Source: a virus
IMG/VR virus record: IMGVR_UViG_3300011114_000931
Coordinates: 1 to 41,491 of that record
Strand: one strand, 5' to 3'
Length of the DNA: 41,491 nucleotides
Shown one piece after another: positions 21,628 to 37,257 of the stretch. Made by a program: the position numbers and the translations under genes. The notes under the pieces were generated by a model. That model did not search any database. It had not been told where the DNA came from and worked only from the letters and a program-made list of their open reading frames with translations. Each line of letters starts with the position of its first letter. Positions within the stretch are counted from its first letter, which is position 1.

Positions 21628-21656
21628 ATTATATTATTATTGATTAATAATAGCAA
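21628..21656 (-). promoter_or_regulatory. Leftward promoter A with spacer-filling dyad operator
   Basis: On the minus strand this reads TTGCTA (-35), a 17-base spacer and TATAAT (-10). The spacer, read on the + strand, is TTATTATTGATTAATAA, an imperfect dyad (TTATTAT-N3-TTAATAA). The same arrangement recurs at 27312, 32825 and 37229. It drives the recombination operon starting at 21582. Confidence 0.82.
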
Positions 21657-21668
21657 CTAAATTATAAT
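21640..21668 (+). promoter_or_regulatory. Rightward early promoter overlapping operator A
   Basis: TTGATT (21640-21645), a 17-base spacer and TATAAT (21663-21668) form a good sigma70 promoter 34 bases before the Cro-like gene. Its -35 box lies inside the dyad of leftward promoter A, so one bound protein could block both directions. Confidence 0.72.
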
Positions 21669-21701
21669 TGATTTTTAACGCAAAACGACGGGGGTAGCGA
21701 T

Positions 21702-21905
21702 ATGACGCTTGATGATTTGATGGCGCACTACGGTACGATTTATAAAGTATCGAAAGGGTTAGGGTTATCGCCTAGTAGTGCTTATCACTGGTGGCGATTG
21801 GGGTACGTTCCGATTGAGACACAAATACGGATACAAGAAAAAACAAATGGTGCTTTGATTGCGGATATTAATCATTGCACTAAAGAATCGAATAACGTGG
21901 GATAG
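21702..21905 (+). CDS. Cro-like helix-turn-helix regulator
   Basis: This 67-residue protein starts at ATG after GGGGGTAG. It reads as one compact HTH domain: DLMAHYGTIYKVSKGLGLSP then SSAYHWWRLGYVPIETQIRI, and ends QEKTNGALIAD, the usual Cro/YdaS-type layout where the helix after the turn contacts DNA. It is the first gene of the rightward early operon, facing the recombination operon across a shared operator. It is the best candidate for the protein that binds the dyads of promoters A-D; no CI-type partner is seen in the genome. Confidence 0.83.
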   Translation: MTLDDLMAHYGTIYKVSKGLGLSPSSAYHWWRLGYVPIETQIRIQEKTNGALIADINHCTKESNNVG

Positions 21906-21907
21906 AT

Positions 21908-22111
21908 ATGACTGAACAGGAAGAGTTGGAAGCTTTTAGGGCATGGAAGCGAGCGAGAGACAAAAATCAATTAGAAGAGATATTTTTTCAGATTGAATCG
22001 TCTTTAAACGAGCCGTCTTCTCGCGGATTTTCTCCTAGAATGCCTGGCGAGGCTTATAGATTATTAGCAACTGGTTTGATGTTGCTGAAGAAAGAGTTGA
22101 TATTAAAATGA
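21908..22111 (+). CDS. Small hypothetical protein, early operon
   Basis: This 67-residue protein lies two bases after the Cro-like gene. It is helical and charged (EQEELEAFRAWKRARDKNQL, EEIFFQIESSLN), with a middle SSRGFSPRMPGEAYRLLATG and a C-terminal amphipathic helix. Not recognised. It overlaps the next small gene by four bases (ATGA), which supports it being real. Confidence 0.65.
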   Translation: MTEQEELEAFRAWKRARDKNQLEEIFFQIESSLNEPSSRGFSPRMPGEAYRLLATGLMLLKKELILK

Positions 22112-22287
22112 CAAGATTTGATAACGGCAATGTGAACTTGCCTGCTTATTACAAGCATAATAATGGTGATTTAGAGCCAGTTCATATTTTGGATTATGAT
22201 GGAAAGGGTAGGGCTTGGGTGAGATGGAAAGATGATTTTGTGAATATTGTTGACTGCGATAGATTGGAGATAATTTGCGATGAATGA
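22108..22287 (+). CDS. Small hypothetical protein (59 residues)
   Basis: This short open frame reads MTRFDNGNVNLPAYYKHNNG, then DLEPVHILDYDGKGRAWVRW and KDDFVNIVDCDRLEII. It begins in an ATGA overlap with the gene before and ends 8 bases inside the gene after. The beta-rich pattern (strands HILDYD, AWVRW, VNIVDCDRLEII) suggests a small SH3-like or KOW-like fold. It is found only by reading short frames. No function assigned. Confidence 0.65.
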   Translation: MTRFDNGNVNLPAYYKHNNGDLEPVHILDYDGKGRAWVRWKDDFVNIVDCDRLEIICDE

Positions 22288-22480
22288 ATTTAAAAAAGGG
22301 GATGCGGTTTATTATTGGTGTAATGGTGGGCATTTAGTTGATGAGTCAATTAGCGAGATGGATCGTACTAAAATAAAAACCCTAACAGGGGTATTTTTAA
22401 CGGCGTGCGAATATTTTTCAAACAAAACTGATGCAATAGAATATATGAAAGAGTATTTATGGGAATTAGAAAATGAGTGA
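22280..22480 (+). CDS. Small hypothetical protein, early operon
   Basis: This 66-residue protein opens MNEFKKGDAVYYWCNGGHLV, similar in style to the preceding small protein (a beta-barrel-like start), and ends in an acidic helix (AIEYMKEYLWELENE). It overlaps genes on both sides by 8 bases. Not recognised. Confidence 0.62.
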   Translation: MNEFKKGDAVYYWCNGGHLVDESISEMDRTKIKTLTGVFLTACEYFSNKTDAIEYMKEYLWELENE

Positions 22481-22646
22481 AACGTTTCATGAATTTTTGG
22501 TGAGAACCTGCAAGCCTGCGGTTAATTCTTCCATAATCAGTAAAGACGATCAAATAATGCGATTAAACAACAAAATATATTTACTTGAAAAAAGGATGGA
22601 ATTCTTGCAAAGCAAGATTAAAAAAGGGGAAAAAAATGTGGATTGA
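22473..22646 (+). CDS. Small coiled-coil protein (57 residues)
   Basis: Read from ATG 22473 in an overlap with the previous gene. The N-terminal half is FHEFLVRTCKPAVNSSIISK; the second half, QIMRLNNKIYLLEKRMEFLQ followed by SKIKKGEK, is a clear leucine-heptad coiled coil. It overlaps the next gene by 11 bases. Not recognised. Confidence 0.6.
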   Translation: MSETFHEFLVRTCKPAVNSSIISKDDQIMRLNNKIYLLEKRMEFLQSKIKKGEKNVD

Positions 22647-22962
22647 GTTTCAATTATGTTGCTTAAATAGCGAGACCAGGGAGTGTTTAGTTAATTCGGA
22701 TCATATTGTAGGACTCACTTATTTTATGACCGAAAACGAAGAACCTTTGTTTAAGATTAGTTTTTTAGACGAAGCCGATGAGTTTATGTTTTCTTGTTTA
22801 GAAACAGCTATAGCTGTTTACATGGCATTCAAAGACGCATTAAACGGCTATAGCGCAACGATTGACGGTATAGGGTATGTGAAACCATTATCATCCAGTC
22901 GTTACGAAAAAGGCACGCTATGCGCGCCTGCAGAGGTTATCGATTGGCATAAAATGCCATGA
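22636..22962 (+). CDS. Hypothetical protein, early operon
   Basis: This is 108 residues from ATG 22636, with AAAGGGGA upstream; the longer frame start at 22585 lies within the previous gene and has no such site. It is an alpha-beta protein (WIEFQLCCLNSETRECLVNS, FKISFLDEADEFMFSCLETA) with five Cys residues and a C-terminal APAEVIDWHKMP. Not recognised. It overlaps the next gene by four bases. Confidence 0.65.
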   Translation: MWIEFQLCCLNSETRECLVNSDHIVGLTYFMTENEEPLFKISFLDEADEFMFSCLETAIAVYMAFKDALNGYSATIDGIGYVKPLSSSRYEKGTLCAPAEVIDWHKMP

Positions 22963-23090
22963 AAAAACTCACAAAAGCCTTGGCTATGTTTTTAGGAATA
23001 TCTGCAATTGCGTTGACACTGATTATTGTCGCAGAATGTTTTTTTGATTTAGGACAAAATGACTCAGCAATAATTTATCAGGAGCGGTAA
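22959..23090 (+). CDS. Small single-span membrane protein (43 residues)
   Basis: The frame reads MKKLTKALAMFLGISAIALT then LIIVAECFFDLGQNDS. It has one membrane segment after a positive start, with an ATGA overlap to the gene before and a TAATG overlap to the gene after. The coupling on both sides makes it credible despite its size. Function unknown; early phage membrane peptides often act on host functions or superinfection. Confidence 0.62.
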   Translation: MKKLTKALAMFLGISAIALTLIIVAECFFDLGQNDSAIIYQER

Positions 23091-23329
23091 TGGAAGACGC
23101 AAAAACTATTTTGATTGAGCAATCAATGGAAAACATTAAGAAACTTGAATCGATTTTATGCAAATTTAAAACCGATTTAAGTTCGGACGATTTTGATTTG
23201 TTATCTCACGTCTGCATGTCTAGCGAGGTTCTGTGCGCTTATATTTCTACGAGTTTATATGCTGATGTGATAATGATGTATAAACATTATGAAAGACAGT
23301 TTAATGTTGATAATTCTGTTGCTCATTGA
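23090..23329 (+). CDS. Small helical hypothetical protein
   Basis: This 79-residue protein starts in a TAATG overlap, with AGGAGCGG upstream. It is all-helical (AKTILIEQSMENIKKLESIL, DDFDLLSHVCMSSEVLCAYI). Not recognised. Confidence 0.6.
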   Translation: MEDAKTILIEQSMENIKKLESILCKFKTDLSSDDFDLLSHVCMSSEVLCAYISTSLYADVIMMYKHYERQFNVDNSVAH

Positions 23330-23355
23330 TTAACACAAAAAAAAAGGAAAATATT

Positions 23356-23655
23356 TTGTACAAAAAAAACACCTATTGGTTTGTTATAAAAAACAAATCA
23401 AAAAAAGAAGAATTATTTAAATTTGACGCAGGAACGGAAGTAAGAAAAAAAATAATGGAGTTTATGTATGAATCGCAAGATCAAAACAATGAACTCCGTA
23501 TGTCATATGTAGATATAGCAAAAGAAATAGGATGCCATAGAGAAAGCGTCATGAAAGCCGTTAAATGGGCTCAAATAAAAAATATTTTAATAAAAACAAT
23601 GGCAAAACAAAACAAAGTAGAGGAAAGAATAAACAAATATACTTTTATTTTGTAG
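23356..23655 (+). CDS. Winged-helix-like small DNA-binding protein
   Basis: I choose the TTG at 23356 (99 residues) because AAGGAAA precedes it at a good distance; another TTG at 23326 overlaps the previous stop but has no ribosome site. The core, RMSYVDIAKEIGCHRESVMK followed by AVKWAQIKNILI, is a clear helix-turn-helix with wing, and the rest is Lys-rich. It may regulate early genes or help replication initiation, as the O-like gene follows. Confidence 0.65.
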   Translation: MYKKNTYWFVIKNKSKKEELFKFDAGTEVRKKIMEFMYESQDQNNELRMSYVDIAKEIGCHRESVMKAVKWAQIKNILIKTMAKQNKVEERINKYTFIL

Positions 23656-23974
23656 ACAAGTCATTGAAAACAAAGTAAGTTGAACGACTTAAGCTAGAGC
23701 AGTAACTCCAGCTCAGGTCGTGAGCGAAGCTCATTGACATAACCGCGATTAATAAGGAATCGGATTATGGGCTATTATTATATTATATTATTACGGAATG
23801 ACAATAGTTTTGATGAAATATTTTATGCTGATTAGATTGGTAGATTTTTTGTTAAGTAAAAAAAGGATATTAGAAGCGAGAAGTAAATAGGGCATCCCGC
23901 CCCGACACGTATGTTGACGCATACGGTGTACAACCTGTAATGCTGAAGGAACAACAGCGAAGGAATGTTATCAC
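23656..23974. other. 319-base region without a confident gene
   Basis: This stretch separates the small early genes from the O-like replication gene. It contains a GAGC/GCTC-rich segment near 23695-23735, a 22-codon open frame at 23767-23835 with AAGGA upstream (MGYYYIILLRNDNSFDEIFY then AD), a leftward promoter-like sequence related to promoters A-D at 23782-23810, and a hairpin at 23908-23925. It may hold a leader peptide, a small RNA or part of an origin; none is proved. Confidence 0.5.
23908..23925. other. Hairpin CGTATG-loop-CATACG before the O-like gene
   Basis: CGTATG (23908-23913) and CATACG (23920-23925) form a 6-bp stem with loop TTGACG; ACA and TGT outside can pair if one base bulges. 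It is 50 bases upstream of the replication gene. It could be an operator or an RNA element in the leader. Confidence 0.4.
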
Positions 23975-24916
23975 ATGAGCAATAAAAATACAACACCCGC
24001 ATCAATAGAAATTACGCCTGCGTATGATAATTACATATCAATCGATTTATCCTCCAAACGCAATATGTCGCTTTATGAAATGGCTGTTTATCAAACACTG
24101 CGTTTTGAGTGTCAATTTAGTCAAAAGGTCAGCAAAATCGAACGAACAATCGCATGGATTGCCAAGGAATCCAAATGCAGTGAGAGAAAAGTTTACGATG
24201 CATTAAACGCTTTGGAATTTAAGCATTTTGTATTGCAACGTCAAAACGTAAAGAATTTTAAATACGGGAAAGTTAATTCATATCTTATAGCTAAAGATTA
24301 TGAATATTTTAAACAAAAAGACCAATCATTTTACACCCCTGCATCAAACGACATAGGTGTAAAACAAGAGAACAAGTTACCTGAGCAAATTTCTTACACC
24401 CCTGCACCATATGCAGGAACCCCTGCACGAAACGACATACTAAGATCTACATTAGATATACATAAGAAAAACAAAACAATAAACAACACACTTTCACCGC
24501 CTGACGGCGATGTATTGCCTGTAAAAGCGGTTGATACTGATTATTCTTACCCAGATACCTTGTATCAAGAGTCCATGCCAGCAACTGAGATTAAAAACAA
24601 AGAGTTAAATGCAATTGTTAGTACTAATCCTCACAATATCCCATGCGACATGATTGAAGATTGGGCCCAAGTCAGAAAAGTGGCTCGTAAAAAAATAACA
24701 AGAACAGCATGGAACACGATTAATAAGCAATTAGAACTATGCAAACAAAAAGGGATTAGCCCTTTAACTGCTTTTGAGACAATGGTAACCAGGGGATGGG
24801 CCAGTATAGAAGTTGACTGGTTAACAAAAGGAAGTAAAACGCATTTAGCACCTGATGTTACTTATTTTAATCATGATCCATTAAAGCCTCTTAATATTGC
24901 AGAGGATTTATTTTGA
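23975..24916 (+). CDS. Lambda O-like replication initiator
   Basis: This is 313 residues. A winged helix-turn-helix fills about residues 30-115 (MSLYEMAVYQTLRFECQFSQ, RTIAWIAKESKCSERKVYDA then LNALEFKHFV), the pattern of phage O-like initiators. The central linker (~120-165) is encoded by DNA with iteron-like repeats (24332-24439). The C-terminal domain (~225-300: MIEDWAQVRKVARKKITRTA, WNTINKQLELCKQKGISPLT) is the usual helical part that contacts the helicase loader. The P-like gene overlaps its end by four bases. AAGGAATG precedes the start. Confidence 0.82.
   Translation: MSNKNTTPASIEITPAYDNYISIDLSSKRNMSLYEMAVYQTLRFECQFSQKVSKIERTIAWIAKESKCSERKVYDALNALEFKHFVLQRQNVKNFKYGKVNSYLIAKDYEYFKQKDQSFYTPASNDIGVKQENKLPEQISYTPAPYAGTPARNDILRSTLDIHKKNKTINNTLSPPDGDVLPVKAVDTDYSYPDTLYQESMPATEIKNKELNAIVSTNPHNIPCDMIEDWAQVRKVARKKITRTAWNTINKQLELCKQKGISPLTAFETMVTRGWASIEVDWLTKGSKTHLAPDVTYFNHDPLKPLNIAEDLF
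24329..24439. repeat. Intragenic iterons: putative replication origin
   Basis: ACCCCTGCA occurs at 24335, 24398 and 24419. The first and third copies extend to 21 bases with 19 identities (ACCCCTGCATCAAACGACATA at 24335-24355; ACCCCTGCACGAAACGACATA at 24419-24439). TTTTACACC (24329) and GGTGTAAAA (24356) are inverted around copy one, and CCTGCA/TGCAGG are inverted at copy two. AT-rich DNA follows (24440-24490). This is the lambda ori layout: iterons in the O gene followed by an easily melted region. Confidence 0.68.
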
Positions 24917-25536
24917 TGAACAACGACATAAAAACATCAATCATCATAAATATGTTATTTAGAACATTAACTTCAATTTTCCCGGCGTTTAAACAAGCAT
25001 GGCCCTCTGAGCCTGATTTTGAAGACGCCAAAAAAGAATGGTTAAAAGCTTTTATTCAGGCCGGAATAACAGATATTAATCAAATTAAAAATGGAGTAAA
25101 CGCTTTCAGATTAATGGCGAATCCTTTTGTTCCGTCACCTGGTCAATTTATAGCGTTATGCAAACCATCGCGCGAATCATTAGGGATTCCTTCGAACGAT
25201 CAAGCCTATCGTATCGCTTGCATAGCTAGCGGTAAATTTTCAGATAAAAACTGGGTGCATGTTACAATTGAACATGCGGCAACAAAAATCGGGAAGCTTG
25301 ATTTGAACTCCAAACCTGAAGCCTATACGTATAAAATATTTGAACGTCATTTCGAAAACAGCATACAAGATTTTATTAACGGCAAATTACAAGATACATC
25401 CACAGCTATAATTGATGACTCAAAAGAAACAGTTGAACTATCCAAACAACATGAAATTGCGAATCGGTTTAAACATATTAACAATCATTCAAAATGGAGA
25501 GACGATATGATCAAAGTAGGATTCTTAAAACCATGA
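24913..25536 (+). CDS. Lambda P-like replication protein (helicase loader)
   Basis: This 207-residue protein starts in an ATGA overlap with the O-like gene. The N-terminal part (INMLFRTLTSIFPAFKQAWP, EDAKKEWLKAFIQAGITDIN) and LMANPFVPSPGQFIALCKPS fit the lambda P family, where W...L..... and PSP..F..LC motifs are common. The role is to bring the host DnaB helicase to the origin bound by the O-like protein. No AAA motifs are present, so it is a P-type rather than DnaC-type loader. The next small gene overlaps its stop. Confidence 0.8.
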   Translation: MMNNDIKTSIIINMLFRTLTSIFPAFKQAWPSEPDFEDAKKEWLKAFIQAGITDINQIKNGVNAFRLMANPFVPSPGQFIALCKPSRESLGIPSNDQAYRIACIASGKFSDKNWVHVTIEHAATKIGKLDLNSKPEAYTYKIFERHFENSIQDFINGKLQDTSTAIIDDSKETVELSKQHEIANRFKHINNHSKWRDDMIKVGFLKP

Positions 25537-25784
25537 ACTGGCTTTACACTGAATTTTTCCCATATTGTTTAGAGCATGGCGTTGATATCAAACCGGAAGA
25601 TCAACGACACATTGCGATCACAATATACAAAATCCCACTAAACGAACGTAAAGCCGTTATGGCGCGTTATTTCACCGCCTGGCAACAAGGAATGCACTTA
25701 GCGTCCTGCGCGTCACTACGACAAGATGTGGGGCGTAAATACGCAAATAAATTACTAATCGCTGAATGCAAACTATGGGAATAA
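25533..25784 (+). CDS. Small hypothetical protein, paralogue of 25934 gene
   Basis: This is 83 residues from ATG 25533 (ATGA overlap with the P-like gene). Pattern: FFPYCLEHGVDIKPEDQRHI, RKAVMARYFTAWQQGMHLAS, then a GRKYANKLL end. The same order of residues (F..YC...GV....ED...I, RK......Y...W, N/D.GR..AN..L) is found in the gene at 25934, so the two are diverged duplicates. All-helical; function unknown, but coupling to the replication genes suggests a role there. Confidence 0.65.
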   Translation: MNWLYTEFFPYCLEHGVDIKPEDQRHIAITIYKIPLNERKAVMARYFTAWQQGMHLASCASLRQDVGRKYANKLLIAECKLWE

Positions 25785-25854
25785 TAAGATAATAATATGA
25801 TCGCATAATATACAATGCATACATTATGAACATATCGCATCATAGGTTTACGAT

Positions 25855-25883
25855 ATTATATGTATTATGTACAATAGTGACAA
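25855..25883 (-). promoter_or_regulatory. Leftward sigma70-like promoter antisense to replication genes
   Basis: On the minus strand: TTGTCA, 17 bases (CTATTGTACATAATACA) and a perfect TATAAT. It lies in the 149-base AT-rich gap 25785-25933. No leftward gene follows, so a transcript would be antisense to the 25533 and P-like genes. This could be a replication-control RNA. Promoter-like AT-rich matches arise by chance, so confidence is limited. Confidence 0.45.
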
Positions 25884-25933
25884 AAACACGGGGTTAGCCT
25901 ACATTTTGTATAAAATATAACAGGATGTAATTT

Positions 25934-26188
25934 GTGAAAAAAAAGTACGGATACAATATTGATCTACGGTCGTTTGAAGAATATTGCGAGCGCATGGGTG
26001 TGATGTTGTTGGCCGAAGATATTATGTTTATACGTGACAGGCTTAGTTGTCATCATGTTGATGATCATCGCAAGATATTGCATGAGTATGTTAAATGTTG
26101 GTTAAAAATGATGGGCGAATGCGAATGTCGTACAGCTGCGCAGAATTTCGGTAGACGTATGGCTAATAGTTGGTTATTAGGGGTGTAG
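25934..26188 (+). CDS. Small hypothetical protein, paralogue of 25533 gene
   Basis: This is 84 residues from GTG with AGGATG upstream. Residues FEEYCERMGVMLLAEDIMFI, then RKILHEYVKCWLKMMGECEC, then NFGRRMANSWLLGV follow the same spacing as the 25533 gene product. Five Cys residues are present. Function unknown. It ends just before a G/C-rich hairpin (26188-26205) and converges on the leftward small-gene cluster. Confidence 0.65.
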   Translation: MKKKYGYNIDLRSFEEYCERMGVMLLAEDIMFIRDRLSCHHVDDHRKILHEYVKCWLKMMGECECRTAAQNFGRRMANSWLLGV

Positions 26189-26207
26189 GAGCGCGTTAGC
26201 GCCCCGA

Positions 26208-26426
26208 TTAACTGGGGTTGGGGGTTTTGCTTAGATATGTGTTTACGACGCTTAGCAGCCAAATCAGATTGGTTTGAAGCATTTTAATTTGATCTATGCT
26301 TAAACTTGTATAGCAATCGTGGTTTTCTGCTTTGTTGATAAATGACAGTTCGTGCTGGTTTAGCATTTCGAGTGGCGATAATTCTGGTGTGTAGTGTTCT
26401 CGCATTAAGTCGAATAGGTCTAGCAT
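26208..26426 (-). CDS. Small hypothetical protein, last gene of leftward mini-cluster
   Basis: This is 72 residues; its ATG overlaps the stop of the gene before it, and GGAG lies upstream. Helical, acidic N-terminus (MLDLFDLMREHYTPELSPLE) and a second part SLSIDQIKMLQTNLIWLLSV. The LSIDQI..LQT..I phrase resembles LSLDQIEDLETKMTDI in the 27006 gene product, suggesting related proteins. Function unknown. Confidence 0.62.
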   Translation of the reverse strand: MLDLFDLMREHYTPELSPLEMLNQHELSFINKAENHDCYTSLSIDQIKMLQTNLIWLLSVVNTYLSKTPNPS

Positions 26427-26596
26427 TTATAAAATTCTCCGCATTTAATACAGGTGTGAGTTTGTCCATCAGGGTGAGTCATTACAAAAGTTGCTTCATG
26501 TACACATATTTCTTTAACGTTTAACCCGCACTTTTCCGCTAATTTTTTATCATTCAAATAAACAGCTAAGCGTTTCAACCATTTCGGAATAATCAT
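26420..26596 (-). CDS. Small zinc-ribbon-like protein A
   Basis: This is 58 residues from ATG 26596 (ATGA overlap with the gene before; CGGAGA upstream). The body is basic (IIPKWLKRLAVYLNDKKLAE) and the C-terminus is HTCIKCGEFYKC, a CxxC pair plus a third Cys that could bind zinc with an upstream His or Cys. The preceding gene ends in a similar CFKCKKCGDLYR. Unrecognised; perhaps an anti-host or regulatory peptide. Confidence 0.62.
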   Translation of the reverse strand: MIIPKWLKRLAVYLNDKKLAEKCGLNVKEICVHEATFVMTHPDGQTHTCIKCGEFYKC

Positions 26597-26835
26597 CTGT
26601 AAAGATCTCCGCATTTTTTGCATTTAAAACATTCAGTTCTTGCGCTCATATCAGCATCTTGTTGTATATATACTTGACCATCGCTTTCATGAATTTTGCA
26701 AAAGTAATTATCAATCATGGAGTGGATTTTATCTAATAATGGATCGTTGGTTATTTGTGATACATAATCTTTCTCATGCCAGTCAACCATCATCGACATT
26801 AGGTCTAATAACTCTGCTTTTGTGAAGTCATTCAT
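26593..26835 (-). CDS. Small zinc-ribbon-like protein B
   Basis: This is 80 residues from ATG 26835 (AAAGGCGG upstream; earlier in-frame starts lack a site). Helical acidic body (DFTKAELLDLMSMMVDWHEK, PLLDKIHSMIDNYFCKIHES) and C-terminal ECFKCKKCGDLYR, related to the end of the next gene product (CIKCGEFYKC). Function unknown. Confidence 0.62.
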   Translation of the reverse strand: MNDFTKAELLDLMSMMVDWHEKDYVSQITNDPLLDKIHSMIDNYFCKIHESDGQVYIQQDADMSARTECFKCKKCGDLYR

Positions 26836-27016
26836 TTTTGACCGCCTTTGTTTTTGATTCGCCACAAAAATACCCATAACAAATACCCAGCATCCCACTC
26901 CAGTTTTCCGGCAAATTTGCTATTTCGTATTCTCGCATAAGCTCCGGTGTAAGTTTTCTGCCGCATTCGTTCGTACAATTGGGCGATGCGCAAAACGCAC
27001 GGTCTTTAAAGTTCAA
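26828..27016 (-). CDS. Small cysteine-rich protein
   Basis: This is 62 residues from TTG overlapping the stop of the gene before. It has six cysteines: CASPNCTNECGRKL and, near the middle, GICYGYFCGE. The first group (C-x4-C-x3-C) plus CxxxxxC looks like a zinc-binding or disulphide-bonded unit. Function unknown. Start confidence is low, coding confidence moderate because it fills the operon with overlaps on both sides. Confidence 0.58.
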   Translation of the reverse strand: MNFKDRAFCASPNCTNECGRKLTPELMREYEIANLPENWSGMLGICYGYFCGESKTKAVKNE

Positions 27017-27188
27017 TATTTTGTTTCATCCTATAATCTTGCAATTGTTTGATTATATCAGTCATTTTTGTTTCTAAATCTTCGATTTGGTCTAACGACA
27101 AAACCATACAGTGAATCGCCTCATTAACATCTACTACGACAATATGTTTACCTGTGCTTGTTTGTGGAGTTATTCGAAATAAATTCAT
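27006..27188 (-). CDS. Small hypothetical protein with C-terminal helix
   Basis: This is 60 residues from ATG 27188 (ATGA overlap; GGAGAAGAAG upstream). A beta start (MNLFRITPQTSTGKHIVVVD) is followed by a helix LSLDQIEDLETKMTDIIKQL. Function unknown. Confidence 0.62.
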   Translation of the reverse strand: MNLFRITPQTSTGKHIVVVDVNEAIHCMVLSLDQIEDLETKMTDIIKQLQDYRMKQNIEL

Positions 27189-27283
27189 TCTTCTTCTCCG
27201 TCTAAATCCCATTGTGCTTCACGAAAATCTTGCTCTTCTTGATATTGTTCTGGTTCGTCGCCGTGGCAATCTTCTGTTTTCAT
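27185..27283 (-). CDS. Very small acidic protein (32 residues)
   Basis: The frame reads MKTEDCHGDEPEQYQEEQDF then REAQWDLDGEEE. It is strongly acidic, overlaps the next gene as ATGA, and starts 29 bases after the -10 box of promoter B. The position as first gene after a good promoter and the overlap support it. It could mimic DNA or be a leader; both are guesses. Confidence 0.5.
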   Translation of the reverse strand: MKTEDCHGDEPEQYQEEQDFREAQWDLDGEEE

Positions 27284-27311
27284 AACGTTCTTTCGTTAAC
27301 AATATACAGCC

Positions 27312-27340
27312 ATTATATTATTATTTAATAACAATAGCAA
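27312..27340 (-). promoter_or_regulatory. Leftward promoter B with spacer-filling dyad operator
   Basis: Minus strand: TTGCTA, 17-base spacer, TATAAT. The + strand spacer TTATTATTTAATAACAA is a dyad (TTATTAT-N3-ATAACAA). It is nearly the same as promoter A in all three parts. It drives the six-gene mini-cluster beginning at 27283. Confidence 0.85.
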
Positions 27341-27455
27341 GCTATAAATGCATACAAAATGGAAGGATTTAGACCGCGGCTTGAAAGTCATATAGAATAA
27401 GGGTTTTGTTGTGTTTACTCACAGACTTTTCAACAGATATTGGGGGTTAAATTAC

Positions 27456-29183: not shown

Positions 29184-29714
29184 TTATCCATAACCATTTT
29201 CTTTTCTCCATTCACCCACCCATTCATACCCTTTCACTCCGTGAGCAAACTCTTGTAATTCGGTGATTGTGGGTTTTTTTGTTTTTGAAGTTGAAGTTGC
29301 GTAAGCATCGCTATTGTCTTTCTTATTGCTTTTAAGATCTGAATTTTCCATATACCGTTTTTGGGTAAGCTTAGGTGACCCATTTTTGGGTAAGCTTCCG
29401 GAAATAACGGGTACGCTTGGTTTTTGAGCATACCCAATAACGGGTACGCTTAATGTAACTCTGTACACAGGCGTGCTTTTGGTTTTCCCTTTCATTTCAC
29501 CCGTTTTCACTATTAATTTTTTTTCAGATAATGAAACAAGAGCTTTATAAACGGTTTTTTTATCCAATGAAGTACTTTCACAAAGTGATTTAGCTGAAGG
29601 CCAGCACTCATATGTTTTTTCATCGGCACGAAAGGCAAGCACATTTAAAGTAGAATGTTCAGATGATAATAAATATTTAATTTTATAAGAAAGATTTACT
29701 AGTTCTATGCTCAT
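29184..29714 (-). CDS. Second winged-helix initiator-like protein
   Basis: This is 176 residues. The N-terminal winged HTH (residues ~10-90: YLLSSEHSTLNVLAFRADEK, WPSAKSLCESTSLDKKTVYK, LVSLSEKKLIVKTGEMKGK) is of the same type as the O-like protein. The linker (~90-125) has repeated peptides (SVPVIGYAQKP, SVPVISGSLPK, SPKLTQK) encoded by DNA iterons. The C-terminal TITELQEFAHGVKGYEWVGE is short. It lies alone on the minus strand between large terminase and portal. It could be a second replication initiator or a regulator that binds its own gene. There is a weak ribosome site. Confidence 0.72.
   Translation of the reverse strand: MSIELVNLSYKIKYLLSSEHSTLNVLAFRADEKTYECWPSAKSLCESTSLDKKTVYKALVSLSEKKLIVKTGEMKGKTKSTPVYRVTLSVPVIGYAQKPSVPVISGSLPKNGSPKLTQKRYMENSDLKSNKKDNSDAYATSTSKTKKPTITELQEFAHGVKGYEWVGEWRKENGYG
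29363..29451. repeat. Intragenic repeats GGGTAMGCTT (x4)
   Basis: GGGTAAGCTT occurs at 29363 and 29388, each after a T-run (TTTTTGGGTAAGCTT), and GGGTACGCTT at 29409 and 29442, each after ATAAC (ATAACGGGTACGCTT). Spacings are 25, 21 and 33 bases. The array lies inside the second initiator-like gene, as the iterons at 24.3 kb lie inside the O-like gene. It may be a second origin or a self-binding site. Confidence 0.72.
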
Positions 29715-29784
29715 TTGTTATACTATTCCCATGATGTTGTTTCGTTTGTCTGTCACTTCATCTTGTATTTGATACATACACTAG

Positions 29785-29813
29785 CCGCGTATATCGTCGA
29801 AAAATCTACGCGG
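29785..29813. other. Hairpin CCGCGTA/TACGCGG in the portal leader
   Basis: A perfect 7-bp G/C-rich stem (29785-29791 with 29807-29813) with a 15-base loop is followed by CAATCCCTTG. It is in the 235-base gap before the portal gene. A TATAAT at 29888-29893 downstream may be the -10 box of the head operon promoter, though its -35 box is poor. The hairpin may end a leftward or upstream transcript. Confidence 0.4.
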
Positions 29814-29949
29814 CAATCCCTTGTCTAGCCTGCATTATACACAAGTCATTGATTAAATTATATAAATCAAAAACTCTCGATATGGCATATAATCTAACTT
29901 TGTAGCATCATAACGTTTACTATCGTCCGCTAGCTTGCAGGAGTTTTTA

Positions 29950-31488: not shown

Positions 31489-32378
31489 TGCCTAAACAAT
31501 TTCCGCTAACAAAAAAACGGCAAGCTTGGGTAGAAAACAGAAAAACAAAATTGCTGGGAACCAAACTTGCGCATAACGCAAGTCTTGAACAACGCTACGC
31601 TACGGAATTGCGAAGACTTGTCATACAAATGACAAGCGAAACGTTGCGTGAAATTAACAAGTTATTTAGAACAGAAACTAGCAAAGAATTTATTGCGCAA
31701 CAAAAACAACAAATGGCCATGGACGCTAACATCGGTAGTATGGCGAGAATACTTATGAACGCGTTAACGGATAAATTTACAAAGTTATTTGCGAAAAAAT
31801 CAAAATCAATTGTCGATCAAATGCTATCAGGTGCAGAAAAAACCAGCACTTCTATTGTACACGCCAGCCTTAACAAGTTGTCTGGAGGGCTGTCTTTAAA
31901 AACAGGAATTGTATCTCCGGGCTATGAAAATATAGCAACAGCTATCACTGCAGAAAACGTAAACTTAATTAAATCTATTTCTCAAAAGTATTTAGACGAC
32001 GTAACCGGCGCGGTTATGCGCTCAATAACGCAAGGCGAAGGATTAAAAGATTTAGTACCTGAGATACAGAAATACGACGGACAAACGTATCGACGAGCTA
32101 AAAACATCGCATTAGATCAAACACGCAAAGCTTACAACACGATTAACGCGCAAAAACTTACCACGCTTGGTATAACTCATTTCATCTGGCGTCATTCAAG
32201 CGGAGGCATAACGCCGCGAGAATCACATCTGCACATCTTAAATGGAAAGACGTTTAGCTTTGAAAATTTAATTGAAGAACAAACCGCTTTAGGTGTAGCT
32301 GAGCGTGATCGAGGCTTACCAGGCATCCCGGTGAATTGTAAATGCACTATATTGCCAATAATAGACTTATCAGAATAA
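31488..32378 (+). CDS. Head morphogenesis protein (SPP1 gp7/Mu F-like)
   Basis: This is 296 residues, basic and helical at the start (LTKKRQAWVENRKTKLLGTK). The C-terminal domain has YDGQTYRRAKNIALDQTRKA, then THFIWRHSSGGITPRESHLH, then GLPGIPVNCKCTILPII, the hallmark of the phage Mu F/SPP1 gp7 family (W..s.g..tR..H...nG ... P...~C.C). It is a minor capsid protein that binds the portal and may travel with the DNA. The ATG overlaps the portal stop. Confidence 0.9.
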   Translation: MPKQFPLTKKRQAWVENRKTKLLGTKLAHNASLEQRYATELRRLVIQMTSETLREINKLFRTETSKEFIAQQKQQMAMDANIGSMARILMNALTDKFTKLFAKKSKSIVDQMLSGAEKTSTSIVHASLNKLSGGLSLKTGIVSPGYENIATAITAENVNLIKSISQKYLDDVTGAVMRSITQGEGLKDLVPEIQKYDGQTYRRAKNIALDQTRKAYNTINAQKLTTLGITHFIWRHSSGGITPRESHLHILNGKTFSFENLIEEQTALGVAERDRGLPGIPVNCKCTILPIIDLSE

Positions 32379-32399
32379 TTATAACACAAGGATATTGTT

Positions 32400-32648
32400 A
32401 TGAAAATTAATTTGATGACTGTTTTACGTAATTATCAAGCCAAATGGTTAGCGGCTGACATTGCTTTGATTACGGATATTTTTGCTAATGGCGTGTGGGG
32501 TAGCGAATATTACAAAATGTTCGAGGTGTTTGGTGTTGAAGCCAGCACTGTAAATGCTGGCATATCTGGGTTGCAAATACTTCGCGTATTTATATTGCTA
32601 TATCAAGGAGCAGTTGAAAGACAGACGAGGGAAATGGACAAAGCTTAA
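32400..32648 (+). CDS. Hypothetical protein after head morphogenesis gene
   Basis: This 82-residue protein has CAAGGATATTG before the ATG. Mostly helical (MTVLRNYQAKWLAADIALIT, AGISGLQILRVFILLYQGAV). No motif recognised. It ends four bases inside a converging small gene. Confidence 0.6.
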   Translation: MKINLMTVLRNYQAKWLAADIALITDIFANGVWGSEYYKMFEVFGVEASTVNAGISGLQILRVFILLYQGAVERQTREMDKA

Positions 32649-32791
32649 AGAACACCTATCCAATGAAACCCAATATAAGCAACAACAAGCTGCAGAACTG
32701 CGCACATAAACCCGCAGCTTTTTGAAATTGATTCTAGTTTTTTTATCATAATCTCATTATCAGATAATTTTGTTTTTGGTTTGCCCCACAT
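32645..32791 (-). CDS. Small membrane protein (48 residues) under promoter C
   Basis: The frame reads MWGKPKTKLSDNEIMIKKLE, then a hydrophobic C-terminus (CGFMCAVLQLVVAYIGFHWI then GVL). GGAAGAG precedes the ATG. It is the only gene downstream of leftward promoter C, 34 bases away, which makes a real product likely although it is short. A tail-anchored, single-span peptide; function unknown. Confidence 0.62.
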   Translation of the reverse strand: MWGKPKTKLSDNEIMIKKLESISKSCGFMCAVLQLVVAYIGFHWIGVL

Positions 32792-32824
32792 AGTTACTCT
32801 TCCTTTTTTATTAAACACACGCTA

Positions 32825-32853
32825 ATTATATTATTAATTGATAACAATAACAA
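32825..32853 (-). promoter_or_regulatory. Leftward promoter C with spacer-filling dyad operator
   Basis: Minus strand: TTGTTA, 17-base spacer, TATAAT. The + strand spacer TTATTAATTGATAACAA is the same dyad type (TTATTAA-N3-ATAACAA). It drives the 48-residue membrane protein gene. Confidence 0.82.
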
Positions 32854-32877
32854 GTAAACAATCAATTATTATTGTTA

Positions 32878-32905
32878 TTGCGTTATACTATTAATAGGGT
32901 ATACT
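32878..32905 (+). promoter_or_regulatory. Putative rightward promoter divergent from C
   Basis: TTGCGT (32878-32883), 16 bases, TATACT (32900-32905). The spacer contains the perfect palindrome CTATTAATAG. It would read into the structured leader and the 33067 gene. Confidence 0.5.
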
Positions 32906-32961
32906 AGAGACATATAGGGTGACTCCTCCATTTGAAGCCCTTTATTTGCAATCGGGTTGAT

Positions 32962-33011
32962 CCAGACAAGACTATCCGTGCCATAAGCCGACATCATTCG
33001 GTCTTGTTTGG
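32962..33011 (+). other. Leader hairpin CCAGACAAGAC/GTCTTGTTTGG
   Basis: Arms 32962-32972 and 33001-33011 form an 11-bp stem with one G-U pair and a 28-base loop. It lies in the leader between the promoter at 32878 and the gene at 33067. A further TATAAT with an extended -10 (33020-33028) overlaps its downstream side. It may be a regulatory RNA structure; no known riboswitch is recognised. Confidence 0.4.
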
Positions 33012-33019
33012 TCTGATTG

Positions 33020-33028
33020 TGTTATAAT
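33020..33028 (+). promoter_or_regulatory. Extended -10 element before the 33067 gene
   Basis: TGTTATAAT gives a perfect -10 box with the TGn extension, 38 bases before the ATG. The -35 region has no consensus box. Confidence 0.45.
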
Positions 33029-33066
33029 CCATAACGTGGCTGTACTTACTAAAGTAGGGGCGCGTC

Positions 33067-33273
33067 ATGGAAAAGCAAATATTGTCTAGAAAAATCACTG
33101 AAACGCGTATTCATGCGTCATTAAAGATTCCTGCGGTACTTGATTTAAAAATGGATTTAACCAAGAAATCACAAAAAGATTATTGTCGGTTTTTTGACGC
33201 TGAAAAAAGCGTTGAAATGAAGACAATAATGGACGACAACCATGATACTCCAACGCTTGAGACTAAATTTTAA
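33067..33273 (+). CDS. Small hypothetical protein
   Basis: This 68-residue protein has GTAGGGGCGCG before the ATG. Charged, with RKITETRIHASLKIPAVLDL and a Lys-rich middle (KMDLTKKSQKDYCRFF). Not recognised. It has its own promoter-like sequence upstream, and its stop codon lies at the start of a perfect terminator hairpin, so it is a separate transcription unit inserted within the head module. Confidence 0.62.
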   Translation: MEKQILSRKITETRIHASLKIPAVLDLKMDLTKKSQKDYCRFFDAEKSVEMKTIMDDNHDTPTLETKF

Positions 33274-33320
33274 TCAACAATTACAAAACAAATTAATTTA
33301 TTTGTTTTGTAATTGTTGAT
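33273..33320. terminator. Perfect 21-bp bidirectional terminator hairpin
   Basis: Arms 33273-33293 and 33300-33320 pair without mismatch around a 6-base loop (TAATTT); the stem is AT-rich. ATTTTTATTG follows on the + strand. It ends the 33067 transcript. Confidence 0.82.
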
Positions 33321-33402
33321 GGATTTTTATTGTATTTAGCTCGATAACGCTAGCGGTGTGATTAGCTGCTGCATTAACATAATTAAGGATTGCTTCTGAC
33401 AT
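33274..33402 (-). CDS. Possible small protein (42 residues) reading into the hairpin
   Basis: The frame MSEAILNYVNAAANHTASVI then ELNTIKIHQQLQNKLIYL is open, ends in CNC and is helical. Its last 15 codons are the terminator hairpin itself. No good ribosome binding site is seen before the ATG and no promoter of the A-D kind. The start MSE and helical style resemble other small leftward genes of this phage, but it may be a chance frame. Confidence 0.3.
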
Positions 33403-33562
33403 AATGTGAACATCGTTGTAATCTAACTACGAATGTTCTAATGGTGGAATCTAGATACTCAAGTATGATGACTTATGACAAAACACATGAATATTGTGGT
33501 TTACCTTTATTTTGTTGATTAAATTGAGATTAACTACAAACAAAATTTTACAAGGATTATTG

Positions 33563-33841
33563 ATGCGACGGATATTATTGCTTACTACAATTTTGCTGAT
33601 AAGTTGCGAGTCACCTCCTCAGCAATTACAAGCTCAACCAACGAGCAACCAAGAGCATCCCGCGCAGGCTTCGCAGCAATCATCTGGATTGGTTGATCAT
33701 ATGATATCGAGCGCGGCAGGAGGTTTTGCAGCGGGCGCTGGGGCTGCAGTTGCGCATCAAGCAACAACGGGATTAATCGACAAGTGGCGAACTCATGCGC
33801 GGGCGCGTAGAATAAATAATATACGCAATCGAAGGAGATGA
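33563..33841 (+). CDS. Small lipoprotein with glycine-zipper segment
   Basis: This is 92 residues from ATG 33563, with AAGGATTATTG upstream; the earlier in-frame start has no site. MRRILLLTTILLISC is a lipoprotein signal with lipobox LISC. A Gln/Pro/Ser-rich linker follows, then an Ala/Gly segment (MISSAAGGFAAGAGAAVAHQ, ~residues 50-70) that could span a membrane, and a basic C-terminus (RARRINNIRNRRR). It lies within the head module just before the protease/scaffold gene. It may be a spanin-like or virion-associated membrane protein. Confidence 0.7.
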   Translation: MRRILLLTTILLISCESPPQQLQAQPTSNQEHPAQASQQSSGLVDHMISSAAGGFAAGAGAAVAHQATTGLIDKWRTHARARRINNIRNRRR

Positions 33842-33843
33842 TC

Positions 33844-35199
33844 GTGCCTCTAGCCCAGGGTAAAAGTCAAAAAACAATCAGCAAAAACATACAAACGGAA
33901 TTGAAAGCCCATCCCAGCATGCGACCCAAACAAGCCGCCGCTATTGCTTACTCAGAAGCTCGGCAATCAAAAGACACTGAATCCGCGCGCTCTCATGATT
34001 TAAATGGCTATATGGACGTATCCGGTTCAAATATTAGTCGTGTTGGCGTGTTTCCTTATTCCGGCGCACAAATAGCGGCGGAACTTGAAGGCGATCGAAT
34101 TTATATGGTTTATCGCCCTGAAGAATCTTTATCAGACCTAGAAACAATCGAATCGTTTAAATTACTACCGTTTACTGATGAACATGCTATGCTAGGAGCT
34201 GAAGACGGAACTATCCCTGCCGAACAAAAAGGGGTTCATGGGATAACGTCATCTAATGTATATTATGAGGCGCCTTATTTGAAAGCTGATATTAGAGTTT
34301 TTTCGGAACATCTTAAAGACTTGATTTCAAAAGGCAAAACAGAGTTATCCATTGGTTACCGATGTCTGTACGAACAGAAAGCGGGCGAGTATGATGGGCA
34401 GAAGTACGATTTTATTCAGCGTGAACTCCGAGGAAATCACCTGGCTTTAGTCGACGAGGGGCGTTCTGGCCCGGACGTTGCTGTTCTAGACAGCTTTACG
34501 TTTGTTTGCGATACGATGGGAATGATTCATCCCGATTTACCGAAACCAGACTCCATGGAGAAACGCGAAATGGAAAAGATAGATGGCAGTGAGATGTATC
34601 AAGAAGACGAAATGTCGCTTGAAGAGTGCGGAAAGATGGTTAAAGAATTGATGGCAAAAGTTGAGAAAATGATGTCAGCAGAAAAAGCAGAAGCTGAAAT
34701 GATGGACGAAGAACCTGAAATCAAAAAAGAGCTTAGCAAAGAAGCTGCTGCTGAAGGCGATGCTAAAGATGCAGAAGCCGATCCTGATGATTTTGTTAGT
34801 CGTGCAAACATTGAAGATAGCGACGAAGATCCACAATACGAAGCTAGCAAAATGAAAGAAGCAGAAGCTCGCGACGAAGACGAAGAAAAAAAAGACGGCG
34901 ATAAATCCAAAGGGATGGACAGCCAACTTAAATCAATCATGCGCGAAATTTCACGACGAGATACACTCGCTAGTCAATTATCAAATCATATCGGCACATT
35001 TGATCACAGTCAAAAAACTGTGCAAGAAGTGGCGCAATACGGTGTTAAAAAGCTAGGATTGTCTTGCCGAAAAGGGCACGAAGAATCCGTATTATCTGGC
35101 TACCTCGCTGCATCAAAAGGTAATCGTCCAGTTATCGCAGCACAAGACAGCGGCCTAAAAGCTAGCGGTATTGATGCTTATTTGAGAGGGGTTAAATAA
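33844..35199 (+). CDS. DUF2213 capsid maturation protease and scaffold
   Basis: This is 451 residues from GTG 33844. The ATG at 33838 directly abuts the GGAG site (33834-33837) and cannot use it, while the GTG is well spaced and gives the usual start MPLAQGKSQKTIS. Residues ~5-45 have the ...KQAAAIAYSEAR segment. The DUF2213 domain (~60-215) shows VGVFPYSGAQI, LLPFTDEHAML, KTELSIGYRCLYEQKAGEYD and RELRGNHLALVDEGRSGPDV. The rest is a very acidic, Lys/Glu-rich coiled-coil region (~230-360) typical of scaffolds. It is thought to be the prohead protease fused to the scaffold. Confidence 0.87.
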   Translation: MPLAQGKSQKTISKNIQTELKAHPSMRPKQAAAIAYSEARQSKDTESARSHDLNGYMDVSGSNISRVGVFPYSGAQIAAELEGDRIYMVYRPEESLSDLETIESFKLLPFTDEHAMLGAEDGTIPAEQKGVHGITSSNVYYEAPYLKADIRVFSEHLKDLISKGKTELSIGYRCLYEQKAGEYDGQKYDFIQRELRGNHLALVDEGRSGPDVAVLDSFTFVCDTMGMIHPDLPKPDSMEKREMEKIDGSEMYQEDEMSLEECGKMVKELMAKVEKMMSAEKAEAEMMDEEPEIKKELSKEAAAEGDAKDAEADPDDFVSRANIEDSDEDPQYEASKMKEAEARDEDEEKKDGDKSKGMDSQLKSIMREISRRDTLASQLSNHIGTFDHSQKTVQEVAQYGVKKLGLSCRKGHEESVLSGYLAASKGNRPVIAAQDSGLKASGIDAYLRGVK

Positions 35200-35726
35200 T
35201 GTCTTTCCAATCTACTGTATATAATATTCAAGGTTTCGGCGTTCCTGGCGAATTGTTCACTGATTCACCTTATCAAGCTCAACCTTTTACAATTCAATCT
35301 GCTTCAGCTGCTTATAATATTATTGGCGCAACTGCTTGCACAATTACAAGCCAAGGATTTTGTCAAGCTGGTTCGGCTGGCACATTGGGATTTGCAGGGT
35401 TTTTAGTGCAACCAAAAGCAAGCGCATTGTTTGGTACAGGTGGCGTTCCATTGGCTCCCACATTGACATTGAACAATTTCCAAATTGCTGAATGCTTAAC
35501 AATGGGCGTTATCATTGTAACGCTACCAGCCGCTGCTGGCATTGGTGATAATGTGATATACGACAACACCACAGGCGCATTATCAACTATCGCGCAAGGT
35601 GTTAACGTACCGGTTGGTAAAACTTTTGCTAACGCAATTGTTAGTTATTTTACACAAGGCATCGCAGGGACAGCATTGGCAGTCATTACTGTTAATCCTA
35701 CTTTCTTAATCCCAACTCACGCCTAA
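35199..35726 (+). CDS. Capsid cement/decoration protein (Gp24-like)
   Basis: This 175-residue protein overlaps the previous stop as TAATG. It is beta-rich and Gly/Ala-rich: YNIQGFGVPGELFTDSPYQA, AYNIIGATACTITSQGFCQA, FAGFLVQPKASALFGTGG, then YDNTTGALSTIAQGVNVPVG. The pattern of G..F.GFLv.PK.....G closely fits the structural cement family placed before DUF2184 capsid proteins. It stabilises the capsid lattice after expansion. Confidence 0.82.
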   Translation: MSFQSTVYNIQGFGVPGELFTDSPYQAQPFTIQSASAAYNIIGATACTITSQGFCQAGSAGTLGFAGFLVQPKASALFGTGGVPLAPTLTLNNFQIAECLTMGVIIVTLPAAAGIGDNVIYDNTTGALSTIAQGVNVPVGKTFANAIVSYFTQGIAGTALAVITVNPTFLIPTHA

Positions 35727-35745
35727 TTTTTAAGGATAAATAATT

Positions 35746-36864
35746 ATGTATAGCGTTAGCAAAGAAAGGTCTTATATCTCTGGCCGTAATATCAAGGCCT
35801 TGGATAACTTTAACGTTCGCGAATACGAATCACTTAACAAGATTGGTATTAACTTAAATCGCGAAACTGTTAATCGTTTAATGCGCGGCAAAGCGGCTTG
35901 CGATTCCATGTTCGCAACAGACAGCTTGCAACCAACAGTGACCACTGGAAGCATCGGTACACCTGTGCAATTTCTGCAGGAATGGCTCCCGGGATTCGTG
36001 CAAGTAATCACCGGCGCACGAAAAATAGACGAGTTCATCGGTATTCTAAATACCGGATCCTGGGAAGATGAACAAGTTGTTCAAGGTATCTTGGAACGTA
36101 CTGGTACTACAATGCCATATGGCGATTACACTAACGTACCACTAAGTTCTTGGAACGTTAACTTCAACTATCGTACTGTTGTGCGATTTGAAGAAGGTAT
36201 GAAAGTCGGCAACCTGGAAGCTGCACGCTCTGCTAGAATGCGCGTAGACGATCAAGGCATGAAACGCGAAGCTGCTGCGGTTTCTTTGGAAATCACACGT
36301 AACTTGGTTGGCTTCAATGGGTTTAATGCTGGCGACAATAATACTTATGGATTTTTGAACGATCCAGGCCTTGGCGCATTTCAATTAGTAGCTGCAGGCG
36401 TTGCAGGTCGCACATGGGCTGTTAAAACATTCCTGGAAATCCAAAAAGACTTGTTAACCGCACTACAGACATTGCGAACACAATCACAAGATACTATCGA
36501 CCCAGAAACTGTTGATATTACTCTTGCGGTTGCGACAAGCGCCGTGGATTACTTGGCTAAAACTTCTGATTTCGGTATCAGCGTTCGCACTTGGTTACGT
36601 GAGGCTTATCCTCGCGTGCGCGTTGTATCCGCTCCTCAGCTTAATGCTGCTAGTGGTGGACTCAATGTGTTTTACATGTACGCCGATGTCATTGCAGATA
36701 TGAGCACTGACGGTGGCCGCGTTTGGATTCAGCCTGTGCCTACAAAGTTTCAAGTATTGGGCGTGCAACAGCTTGCAAAAGGCTACGAAGAAGATTTTTC
36801 GAATGCAACTGCTGGTGCGATGCTAAAACGGCCTTATGCTGTTACAAATTGGTATAATATTTAA
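35746..36864 (+). CDS. Major capsid protein (DUF2184 type)
   Basis: This 372-residue protein has AAGGATAAATA upstream. Typical parts are TPVQFLQEWLPGFVQVITGA, EDEQVVQGILERTGTTMPYG, DYTNVPLSSWNVNFNYRTVV, RFEEGMKVGNLEAARSARMR, FGISVRTWLREAYPRVRVVS and a YEEDFSNATAGAMLKRPYAV end, all fitting the HK97-fold DUF2184 capsid family. A strong terminator follows directly, as expected for the most abundant virion protein. Confidence 0.92.
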   Translation: MYSVSKERSYISGRNIKALDNFNVREYESLNKIGINLNRETVNRLMRGKAACDSMFATDSLQPTVTTGSIGTPVQFLQEWLPGFVQVITGARKIDEFIGILNTGSWEDEQVVQGILERTGTTMPYGDYTNVPLSSWNVNFNYRTVVRFEEGMKVGNLEAARSARMRVDDQGMKREAAAVSLEITRNLVGFNGFNAGDNNTYGFLNDPGLGAFQLVAAGVAGRTWAVKTFLEIQKDLLTALQTLRTQSQDTIDPETVDITLAVATSAVDYLAKTSDFGISVRTWLREAYPRVRVVSAPQLNAASGGLNVFYMYADVIADMSTDGGRVWIQPVPTKFQVLGVQQLAKGYEEDFSNATAGAMLKRPYAVTNWYNI

Positions 36865-36882
36865 CAATAAATCGTAATATTA

Positions 36883-36914
36883 ATTTGCTCCTGTCAATTC
36901 AGGGGCAAATTTTT
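36883..36914. terminator. Strong terminator after the capsid gene
   Basis: ATTTGCTCCTG (36883-36893) pairs with CAGGGGCAAAT (36900-36910) with one G-T pair; loop TCAATT; followed by TTTTT. The A/T-rich foot on the left side also lets it stop the leftward gene that ends at 36913. Confidence 0.88.
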
Positions 36915-37209
36915 AATCCTCATTAAAAACACGATTTGCGGTTTCAAATATTTTTTTGATTTCTATATCGTCTTTATCTTTTATTTCAAAATTATTAATA
37001 TAATCTTGCCTGTCACTTTTGCTTAGCATCGAAAACAACTCCAATACAATGTAATTTAGTTTTGACGACAGTGTTTTATAAAAACCATGCTCAACCATTA
37101 AAACATCCAATGTTTCGTGAACGTTTTTAGTAATTTCTTTTACACGCGGCGATTGTTTTTCAAAATCCAACAAAAAATTTTCTATAAATTCAACAAAGAT
37201 TTCACTCAT
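36913..37209 (-). CDS. Small leftward gene under promoter D
   Basis: This is 98 residues from ATG 37209, with TAGGAATA upstream; the open frame continues upstream through the promoter and is not used. Helical and acidic (MSEIFVEFIENFLLDFEKQS, RVKEITKNVHETLDVLMVEH, VLELFSMLSKSDRQDYINNF). Not recognised. It is inserted on the minus strand between capsid and connector genes, is driven by one of the four shared promoters and ends at the bidirectional terminator, so it is a self-contained early unit (a moron-like gene). Confidence 0.75.
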   Translation of the reverse strand: MSEIFVEFIENFLLDFEKQSPRVKEITKNVHETLDVLMVEHGFYKTLSSKLNYIVLELFSMLSKSDRQDYINNFEIKDKDDIEIKKIFETANRVFNED

Positions 37210-37228
37210 GATATTTTTATTCCTAGTA

Positions 37229-37257
37229 GTTATATTATTATTATATAACAATAACCA
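37229..37257 (-). promoter_or_regulatory. Leftward promoter D with spacer-filling dyad operator
   Basis: Minus strand: TGGTTA, 17-base spacer, TATAAC. The + strand spacer TTATTATTATATAACAA is the clearest dyad of the four (TTATTAT-N3-ATAACAA). The -35 and -10 boxes are each one or two bases weaker than in A-C. It drives the 37209 gene, 20 bases away. Confidence 0.78.

Follow-up and report, generated by a model that had tools for sequence, protein, structure and literature searches.

Four dispersed leftward promoters with a shared dyad are candidate operators of a Cro-like protein in a tailed phage

Cro is known from textbooks for regulating a single divergent promoter pair, PL and PR, at the OL/OR operators of lambdoid phages (lambda, P22 and N15), and in lambda these operators are 17 bases long. 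Dispersed operators are known for phages P1 and phiC31. In Aca-repressed anti-CRISPR operons a small phage helix–turn–helix (HTH) protein reportedly represses accessory genes; Aca regulates its own operon, whereas here one regulator is predicted for four separate units. The subject of this report is the IMG/VR virus record IMGVR_UViG_3300011114_000931, a stretch of 41,491 bases with 39% GC (hereafter the window). It comes from a tailed phage with terminase, recombination, Cro-like, O/P-like replication and lysozyme genes, and carries four leftward (minus-strand) promoters that share one dyad. We propose that a single regulator encoded by the phage probably uses all four sites as its operators, the likeliest candidate being a Cro-like protein of 67 amino acids (aa).

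There are precedents for dispersed operators and for shared early promoters. As outlined in PMC11065993, archaeal viruses (SIRV2, Aca8) place a conserved promoter before many small early anti-defence genes, and later repression by Aca8 has been proposed. The window is alike in that one promoter element precedes small, predicted early genes and a viral regulator is proposed to repress them later, but its promoters are bacterial sigma70 promoters, its regulator belongs to the Cro family, its operator changes with the regulator and its cargo is only candidate anti-defence. The operators or stoperators of cluster A mycobacteriophages, as summarized in PMC6550527, are many dispersed sites of one repressor whose sequence co-varies with it; they are asymmetric and lie mostly away from promoters, whereas every site of the window is a promoter, and the records searched yielded no immunity repressor. 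In T4-like phages, PeSL cassettes are repeated early promoter elements tied to accessory gene exchange (cited in PMC4503421) and consist of a promoter and a stem–loop; the elements described here combine a promoter with a predicted repressor dyad, without an established terminator element. N15-type Cro and its operators are described in PMC4488713. The window resembles the lambdoid arrangement in its divergent PL/PR pair, its P22/N15-type Cro gene and a dyad across both promoters, and differs from it in having a single dyad at the divergent pair, no CI found and extra PL-like operator promoters in the late region.

A Cro regulon of dispersed promoters was not described in the titles and abstract openings found, drawn largely from non-subscription literature. 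If the proposal is true, Cro would govern an early regulon that spans the genome, in phages where no lysogeny switch is visible. Its operator would mark accessory genes and so offer a route from sequence alone to candidate anti-host or anti-defence genes in bacterial viruses; for archaeal viruses, anti-defence genes have already been picked by sequence (PMC11065993). The phages would also supply a natural set of orthogonal Cro–operator pairs for testing the co-evolution of both.

Four matching sites in the window

A sequence-only reading of the window had placed four 29-base leftward promoters at dispersed positions, and all four are present with exactly the boxes and coordinates that it gave (Table 1). 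Site 1 is the PL-type promoter, and sites 2–4 are PL-like promoters that precede small accessory genes in the rightward late region. The genome scan that this reading called for, with a 29-base matrix built from the four sites, separates them clearly: they score 36.7–40.6 bits and the next place 17.5, and the best scores in 60 first-order and 60 third-order simulated sequences were 24.4 and 23.7, respectively. With any one site omitted from the matrix, that site still ranks in the top four, at 26.2–36.8 bits against at most 19.3 at any other place. The pattern TTRTTAWNNNWTAAYAATARC gave four forward matches, none in reverse and none in the reversed control. A looser 17-base pattern allowing two mismatches was less telling, with 21 matches, a shuffle mean of 10.9 and 21 reached in 1 of 100 shuffles. 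The end of the −10 hexamer lies 45, 28, 33 and 19 bases from the start codon at sites 1–4 (20–46 had been proposed).

The dyad had been described as 17 bases long and filling the spacer between the −35 and −10 boxes. It is indeed there, but its constant columns extend to about 21 bases (TATTRTTAW-N3-WTAAYAATA). Across eight sites, the four of the window and the four of its closest relative (below), the sequence varies in 2 of 6 columns of the −35 box, 2 of 12 in the dyad arms and 4 of 5 in the dyad centre, a pattern compatible with an operator whose centre is free. At site 4 the proposed placement of the operator in the −35/−10 spacer did not hold: the boxes assigned there (TGGTTA, TATAAC) are weak, and a better promoter in another register has its −10 box within the dyad. 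Both boxes of this promoter are unchanged in the relative, with one spacer difference.

For comparison we used G001 (IMGVR_UViG_3300014932_000381, 43,466 bases), the closest relative found, the TerL of which is 94% identical to that of the window, and G002 (IMGVR_UViG_3300045923_000052, 40,839 bases), with identities to the window of 74% for TerL, 45% for Cro (by alignment) and 57% for Sak4.

Table 1 Positions of sites, promoters and genes in the window
Feature	Position	Strand	Remarks
Site 1, PL-like promoter of recombination operon, TTGCTA-17-TATAAT	21628..21656	-	dyad 21634-21650 in spacer; G001 counterpart 2286
Site 2, TTGCTA-17-TATAAT, divergent from terL	27312..27340	-	dyad 27318-27334; G001 counterpart 39807
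Site 3, TTGTTA-17-TATAAT	32825..32853	-	dyad 32831-32847; G001 counterpart 32836
Site 4, operator-like 29-mer, TGGTTA-17-TATAAC	37229..37257	-	dyad 37235-37251; G001 counterpart 27666
Better site 4 promoter, TTGATA-17-TATAAT	37240..37268	-	promoter scan, 11/12 matches; -10 inside dyad
Possible weak fifth site	23782..23810	-	17.5 bits; next-best matrix place
Cro-like repressor, 67 aa	21702..21905	+	P22_Cro PF14549; fold nearest N15 Cro on operator DNA, 6on0
PR-like promoter of cro-like gene, TTGATT-17-TATAAT	21640..21668	+	-35 inside site 1 dyad; same geometry in G001
Leftward recombination operon behind site 1	17869..21582	-	145-aa, 103-aa, Sak4-like, SSB-like, Cas4-type exonuclease, further small genes
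Six-gene mini-cluster behind site 2	26208..27283	-	first gene a 32-aa ORF (open reading frame) starting at 27283; partly exchanged in G001
Site 3 cargo, 48-aa peptide, hydrophobic C-terminal stretch	32645..32791	-	
Site 4 cargo, 98-aa protein	36913..37209	-	without Pfam or PHROG match

The same design in two relatives

Each of the four places has its matching site in G001. With the window matrix these score 33.4–40.4 bits, and the next score in that record, 15.6, is the opposite strand of site 1 itself. The Cro proteins of the two phages are 94% identical and have the same third helix, and the operator is common to both. Within the 29-base sites 1–4, window and G001 agree at 28, 27, 27 and 28 positions; over the 40 bases upstream they agree at 30, 35, 34 and 39, and over the 40 bases downstream at 37, 18, 19 and 13. 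The operon behind site 1 is therefore conserved, and the sequences diverge soon past the −10 box at sites 2–4. Judged from this alignment, the control element stays and the cargo changes in three of the four slots. A DNA-pattern scan of the viral contig collection for the window-type site returned G001 only.

In G002 the same arrangement recurs with another operator. Promoters of the form TTGATA-17-TATAAT stand at 1154, 9171 and 40712, all on the leftward-equivalent strand, and their spacers hold a TATCAA-N5-TTGATA-like dyad with 2, 1 and 1 mismatches; additional dyads adjoin them at 1143, 9160 and 40701, and the record has just one other TTGnnn-17-TATAAT. The promoter at 9171 lies in the cro/recombination region, that at 40712 directly upstream of terL, like site 2, and that at 1154 before a further gene cluster. 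With a matrix of their own the three score 36.6–38.4, and 27.5–32.3 when left out, against at most 21.9 elsewhere. The symmetry of the six dyads is better than in the window (letter-shuffle p 0.0013 to 0.044), and the bare dyad, at up to two mismatches, gave 36 rows against 10–24 in 20 first-order simulations. The two matrices do not cross: no place in G002 exceeds 11.6 with the window matrix, and none in the window exceeds 9.7 with that of G002. The G002 Cro, 45% identical to that of the window, has a different third helix. Several separate units thus carry the element above chance in each phage, with four sites in the window, four in G001 and three in G002.

Searches seeded with the PL site alone gave a similar picture. 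In the window, sites 2 and 3 stand out at 3 and 6 mismatches of 29; across the G001 record the nearest 29-mers to PL are the other sites, at 5, 6 and 7 mismatches, as they are in G002 at 4 and 5. In 100 third-order simulations of each record, the minima went no lower than 7 mismatches for the window, 7 for G001 and 6 for G002.

The elements could instead be repeated strong early promoters that serve host RNA polymerase beside accessory genes, the dyad being a by-product of AT-rich spacers and no operator at all. We consider this unlikely. G021, an apparently unrelated AT-rich phage record, does have a family of TTGATATATATAATATAATTTGATATAAT-type promoters, with 8 matches at up to 3 mismatches, and lacks a P22_Cro match, so that repetition alone is not proof of an operator, and the symmetry of single sites in the window is weak at sites 3 and 4. 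However, the distribution of variable columns given above fits an operator; the 29-mer of site 4 is kept despite its poor boxes, when another register makes the better promoter; the element differs between phages along with Cro; and at site 1 it also covers the cro promoter. G021 and a further record, G022, had been picked up with the G002-type pattern and were not taken as members of the group, neither having a P22_Cro match. The repeated promoters of G021 stand among small genes (L087, record places 44479-49557).

The Cro-like protein as the candidate regulator

The 67-aa protein matches the P22_Cro profile at 35 bits, over the curated cut-off of 30.2, and in the PDB a profile of its own family picks out three Cro proteins, those of P22 and N15 and one other. 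Its AlphaFold model (predicted local distance difference test score, pLDDT, 85) consists of helices only, with 6on0 and 2hin as top matches, and superposes on N15 Cro bound to its operator (6on0) with template-modelling (TM) scores of 0.77/0.82 and a root-mean-square deviation of 1.0; the predicted fold is thus the all-alpha fold of Cro.

Site 1 lies between the leftward recombination operon and the rightward gene for this protein. Because its dyad covers both the PL spacer and the −35 box of the cro promoter, one protein bound there would block both, and a dyad across divergent PL and PR promoters is indeed what the window has. The best PL and a best-scoring PR overlap by 14–17 bases in six of the seven cro regions examined, namely those of the window, G001, G002, L080 (CAIWHI010000286.1, 9,678 bases), L063 and L065; the last two are contigs of only 5–6 kb, and in G002 the overlap holds for one of two equal-scoring PR candidates. 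The Cro-like protein is the best candidate regulator of the four sites.

For Cro binding, its timing and the function of the cargo we infer the following course. Host RNA polymerase would fire all four leftward promoters upon infection, so that recombination proteins and small host- or defence-directed proteins would appear together as early products. Accumulating Cro would then bind the dyads and shut the four promoters, at site 1 turning down PL together with its own gene, and this shut-off would also free the late region from opposing transcription.

Opposite cro, no gene for a CI-like repressor was seen in the window, G001 or G002, where searches gave no HTH_3 match over the cut-off and no S24 peptidase; family searches of the same three records for tyrosine integrase and resolvase gave none. 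One weak HTH_3 match was seen in G001 (11.5 bits), and a repressor from another family may still be present in any of the three. Since none of these families was found, the phages may follow early expression with Cro shut-off rather than use a lysogeny-type switch. The same results bear on the idea that the sites are immunity-type operators of a temperate relative with a CI-like repressor, kept where the repressor was lost or lies outside the record. Two TerL relatives, SEN34 and Magia, do have annotated integrase and repressor-like genes, but HTH_3 over the cut-off, S24 peptidase, tyrosine integrase and resolvase are absent from the searches of all three records; the records begin at different points on the map that they share, so the absence of a single end would hardly account for every one of them. 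We regard such an origin as very improbable.

The operator could also belong to another regulator: a host repressor, the winged-helix-like protein at 23326-23655 or the HTH_36 protein at 29184-29714. Both phage proteins have matches to DNA-binding families or replication initiators, yet we hold control of the sites by any such other regulator to be quite unlikely. A host factor would hardly be expected to change its site between phages in step with a change in the neighbouring gene. At the place of the 29184-29714 protein no relative was detectable in G001, even though both phages share the operators, and cro is the one candidate gene whose own promoter lies beneath the dyad.

Regulation by the Cro-like protein has several observations to contend with. 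At site 4, 7 of 29 positions differ from site 1, a distance equalled by an unrelated place at 41306 and in some of 100 simulations. Letter-shuffle p values for dyad symmetry are about 0.015, 0.02, 0.19 and 0.10 at sites 1–4, modest singly and weak at sites 3 and 4. Relative to the window, the site 2 dyad of G001 has one new symmetric pair and lacks another (7 of 8 pairs in both phages); this is no compensated dyad, and we do not count it as support. Among more distant records, the promoters of L080 are alike at both available slots, but their 9 of 29 mismatches fall within the simulated range. In L067, the Cro of which is 40% identical, the best PL and PR do not overlap and no clear dispersed copy was seen. 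A strong leftward promoter (at least 10 of 12 matches, up to 900 bases upstream of terL) was present in 3 of the 43 relatives, out of 47, that had enough DNA: G001, G002 and L007, the last with a promoter unlike those of G001 and G002, which carry operators. After the capsid gene, such a leftward promoter lay within 2,500 bases in 6 of the 50 relatives, out of 58, with enough DNA; only that of G001 is the site 4 element, and G002 has no operator after its capsid gene. By these comparisons the dispersed design appears clear in three phages only.

The reading as one dispersed regulon that takes in scattered leftward genes is supported by the four sites, by their recurrence at the same places in G001 and by the parallel in G002 with another operator. 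It fits less well with the geometry of site 4, and it leaves out the HTH_36 gene at 29184-29714, a leftward gene of the late region between terL and the portal gene that has no such site.

Cargo genes and further features

The genes behind the sites differ between phages. For the 145-aa protein of the operon behind site 1, a search of the phage collection at E 0.01 returned nothing. Some genes of the site 2 cluster have relatives in G001, the last gene most clearly (72% over 67 aa). Behind site 3, G001 has three other genes, one of them Rha/antirepressor-like, and behind site 4 two small ORFs of 58 and 55 aa replace the 98-aa gene of the window. Some genes resemble cargo of a different slot: the 96-aa protein at site 3 of G001 shares 49% identity with one of 94 aa in the terL-side cluster of G002 (1.8e-33), and both small site 4 proteins of G001 match one 48-aa protein of that cluster (51% and 35%). 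From these protein matches, cargo moves between slots. Most scanned cargo proteins match no family; Rha-like and CsrA-like genes occur in relatives, the latter in the leftward terL-side cluster of L080 (3293-3490, a Pfam match) and in a similar cluster of L067 (5908-6099).

A tentative extension is that the operator-promoter acts as a socket, in which the short regulator-specific element stays put and the accessory genes behind it are swapped; the repeated 25–29 bases might serve for this recombination, with the Sak4-type system of the phage itself. An incoming gene would then join the Cro-controlled early regulon, and each Cro operator could locate anti-host genes. We rate this as a possibility, though a somewhat doubtful one.

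Two further places in the window were considered as members and rejected. The possible fifth site (Table 1) scores within the simulation range, has nothing at the matching place in G001 and is probably a chance match. The leftward promoter TTGTCA-17-TATAAT at 25883 is kept in G001 but reaches a matrix score of only 8.9 and has no clear leftward gene; the stretch 25855-25883 (−) is identical in G001 and may yield antisense RNA over the replication region.

Several other features were seen near the sites or in the relatives. Behind site 1, 32 bases of the PL leader (21593-21624, −) are identical in G001, and a look-alike with ATTACCGAC occurs in L080 and L065; this stretch is possibly an antitermination or other leader signal. 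At the place of 29184-29714, G001 has a gene without detectable similarity (L005 5409-5999). The DNA upstream, 29715-29900 (−), is shared and has a hairpin; it reads GCCGCGTA/TACGCGGC in the window but GCCGTATA/TATACGGC in G001, with paired changes between the two phages and a similar loop. Behind the 1154 promoter of G002, the noncoding stretch L059 1183-1450 has tRNA-like ends, GACGATCT..AGATCGTC; ARAGORN and Rfam (gathering) scans gave nothing there. Within the site 4 cargo of G001, Rfam places an int-alpA RNA at L054 5963-6029 (39.1 bits, cut-off 35.8). L080 is filed under a Bacteroidetes metagenome-assembled genome, yet it resembles a phage contig near the window phage (Sak4 81%), and Rfam also lists HPnc0580 in it at 367-466 (43.1 bits).

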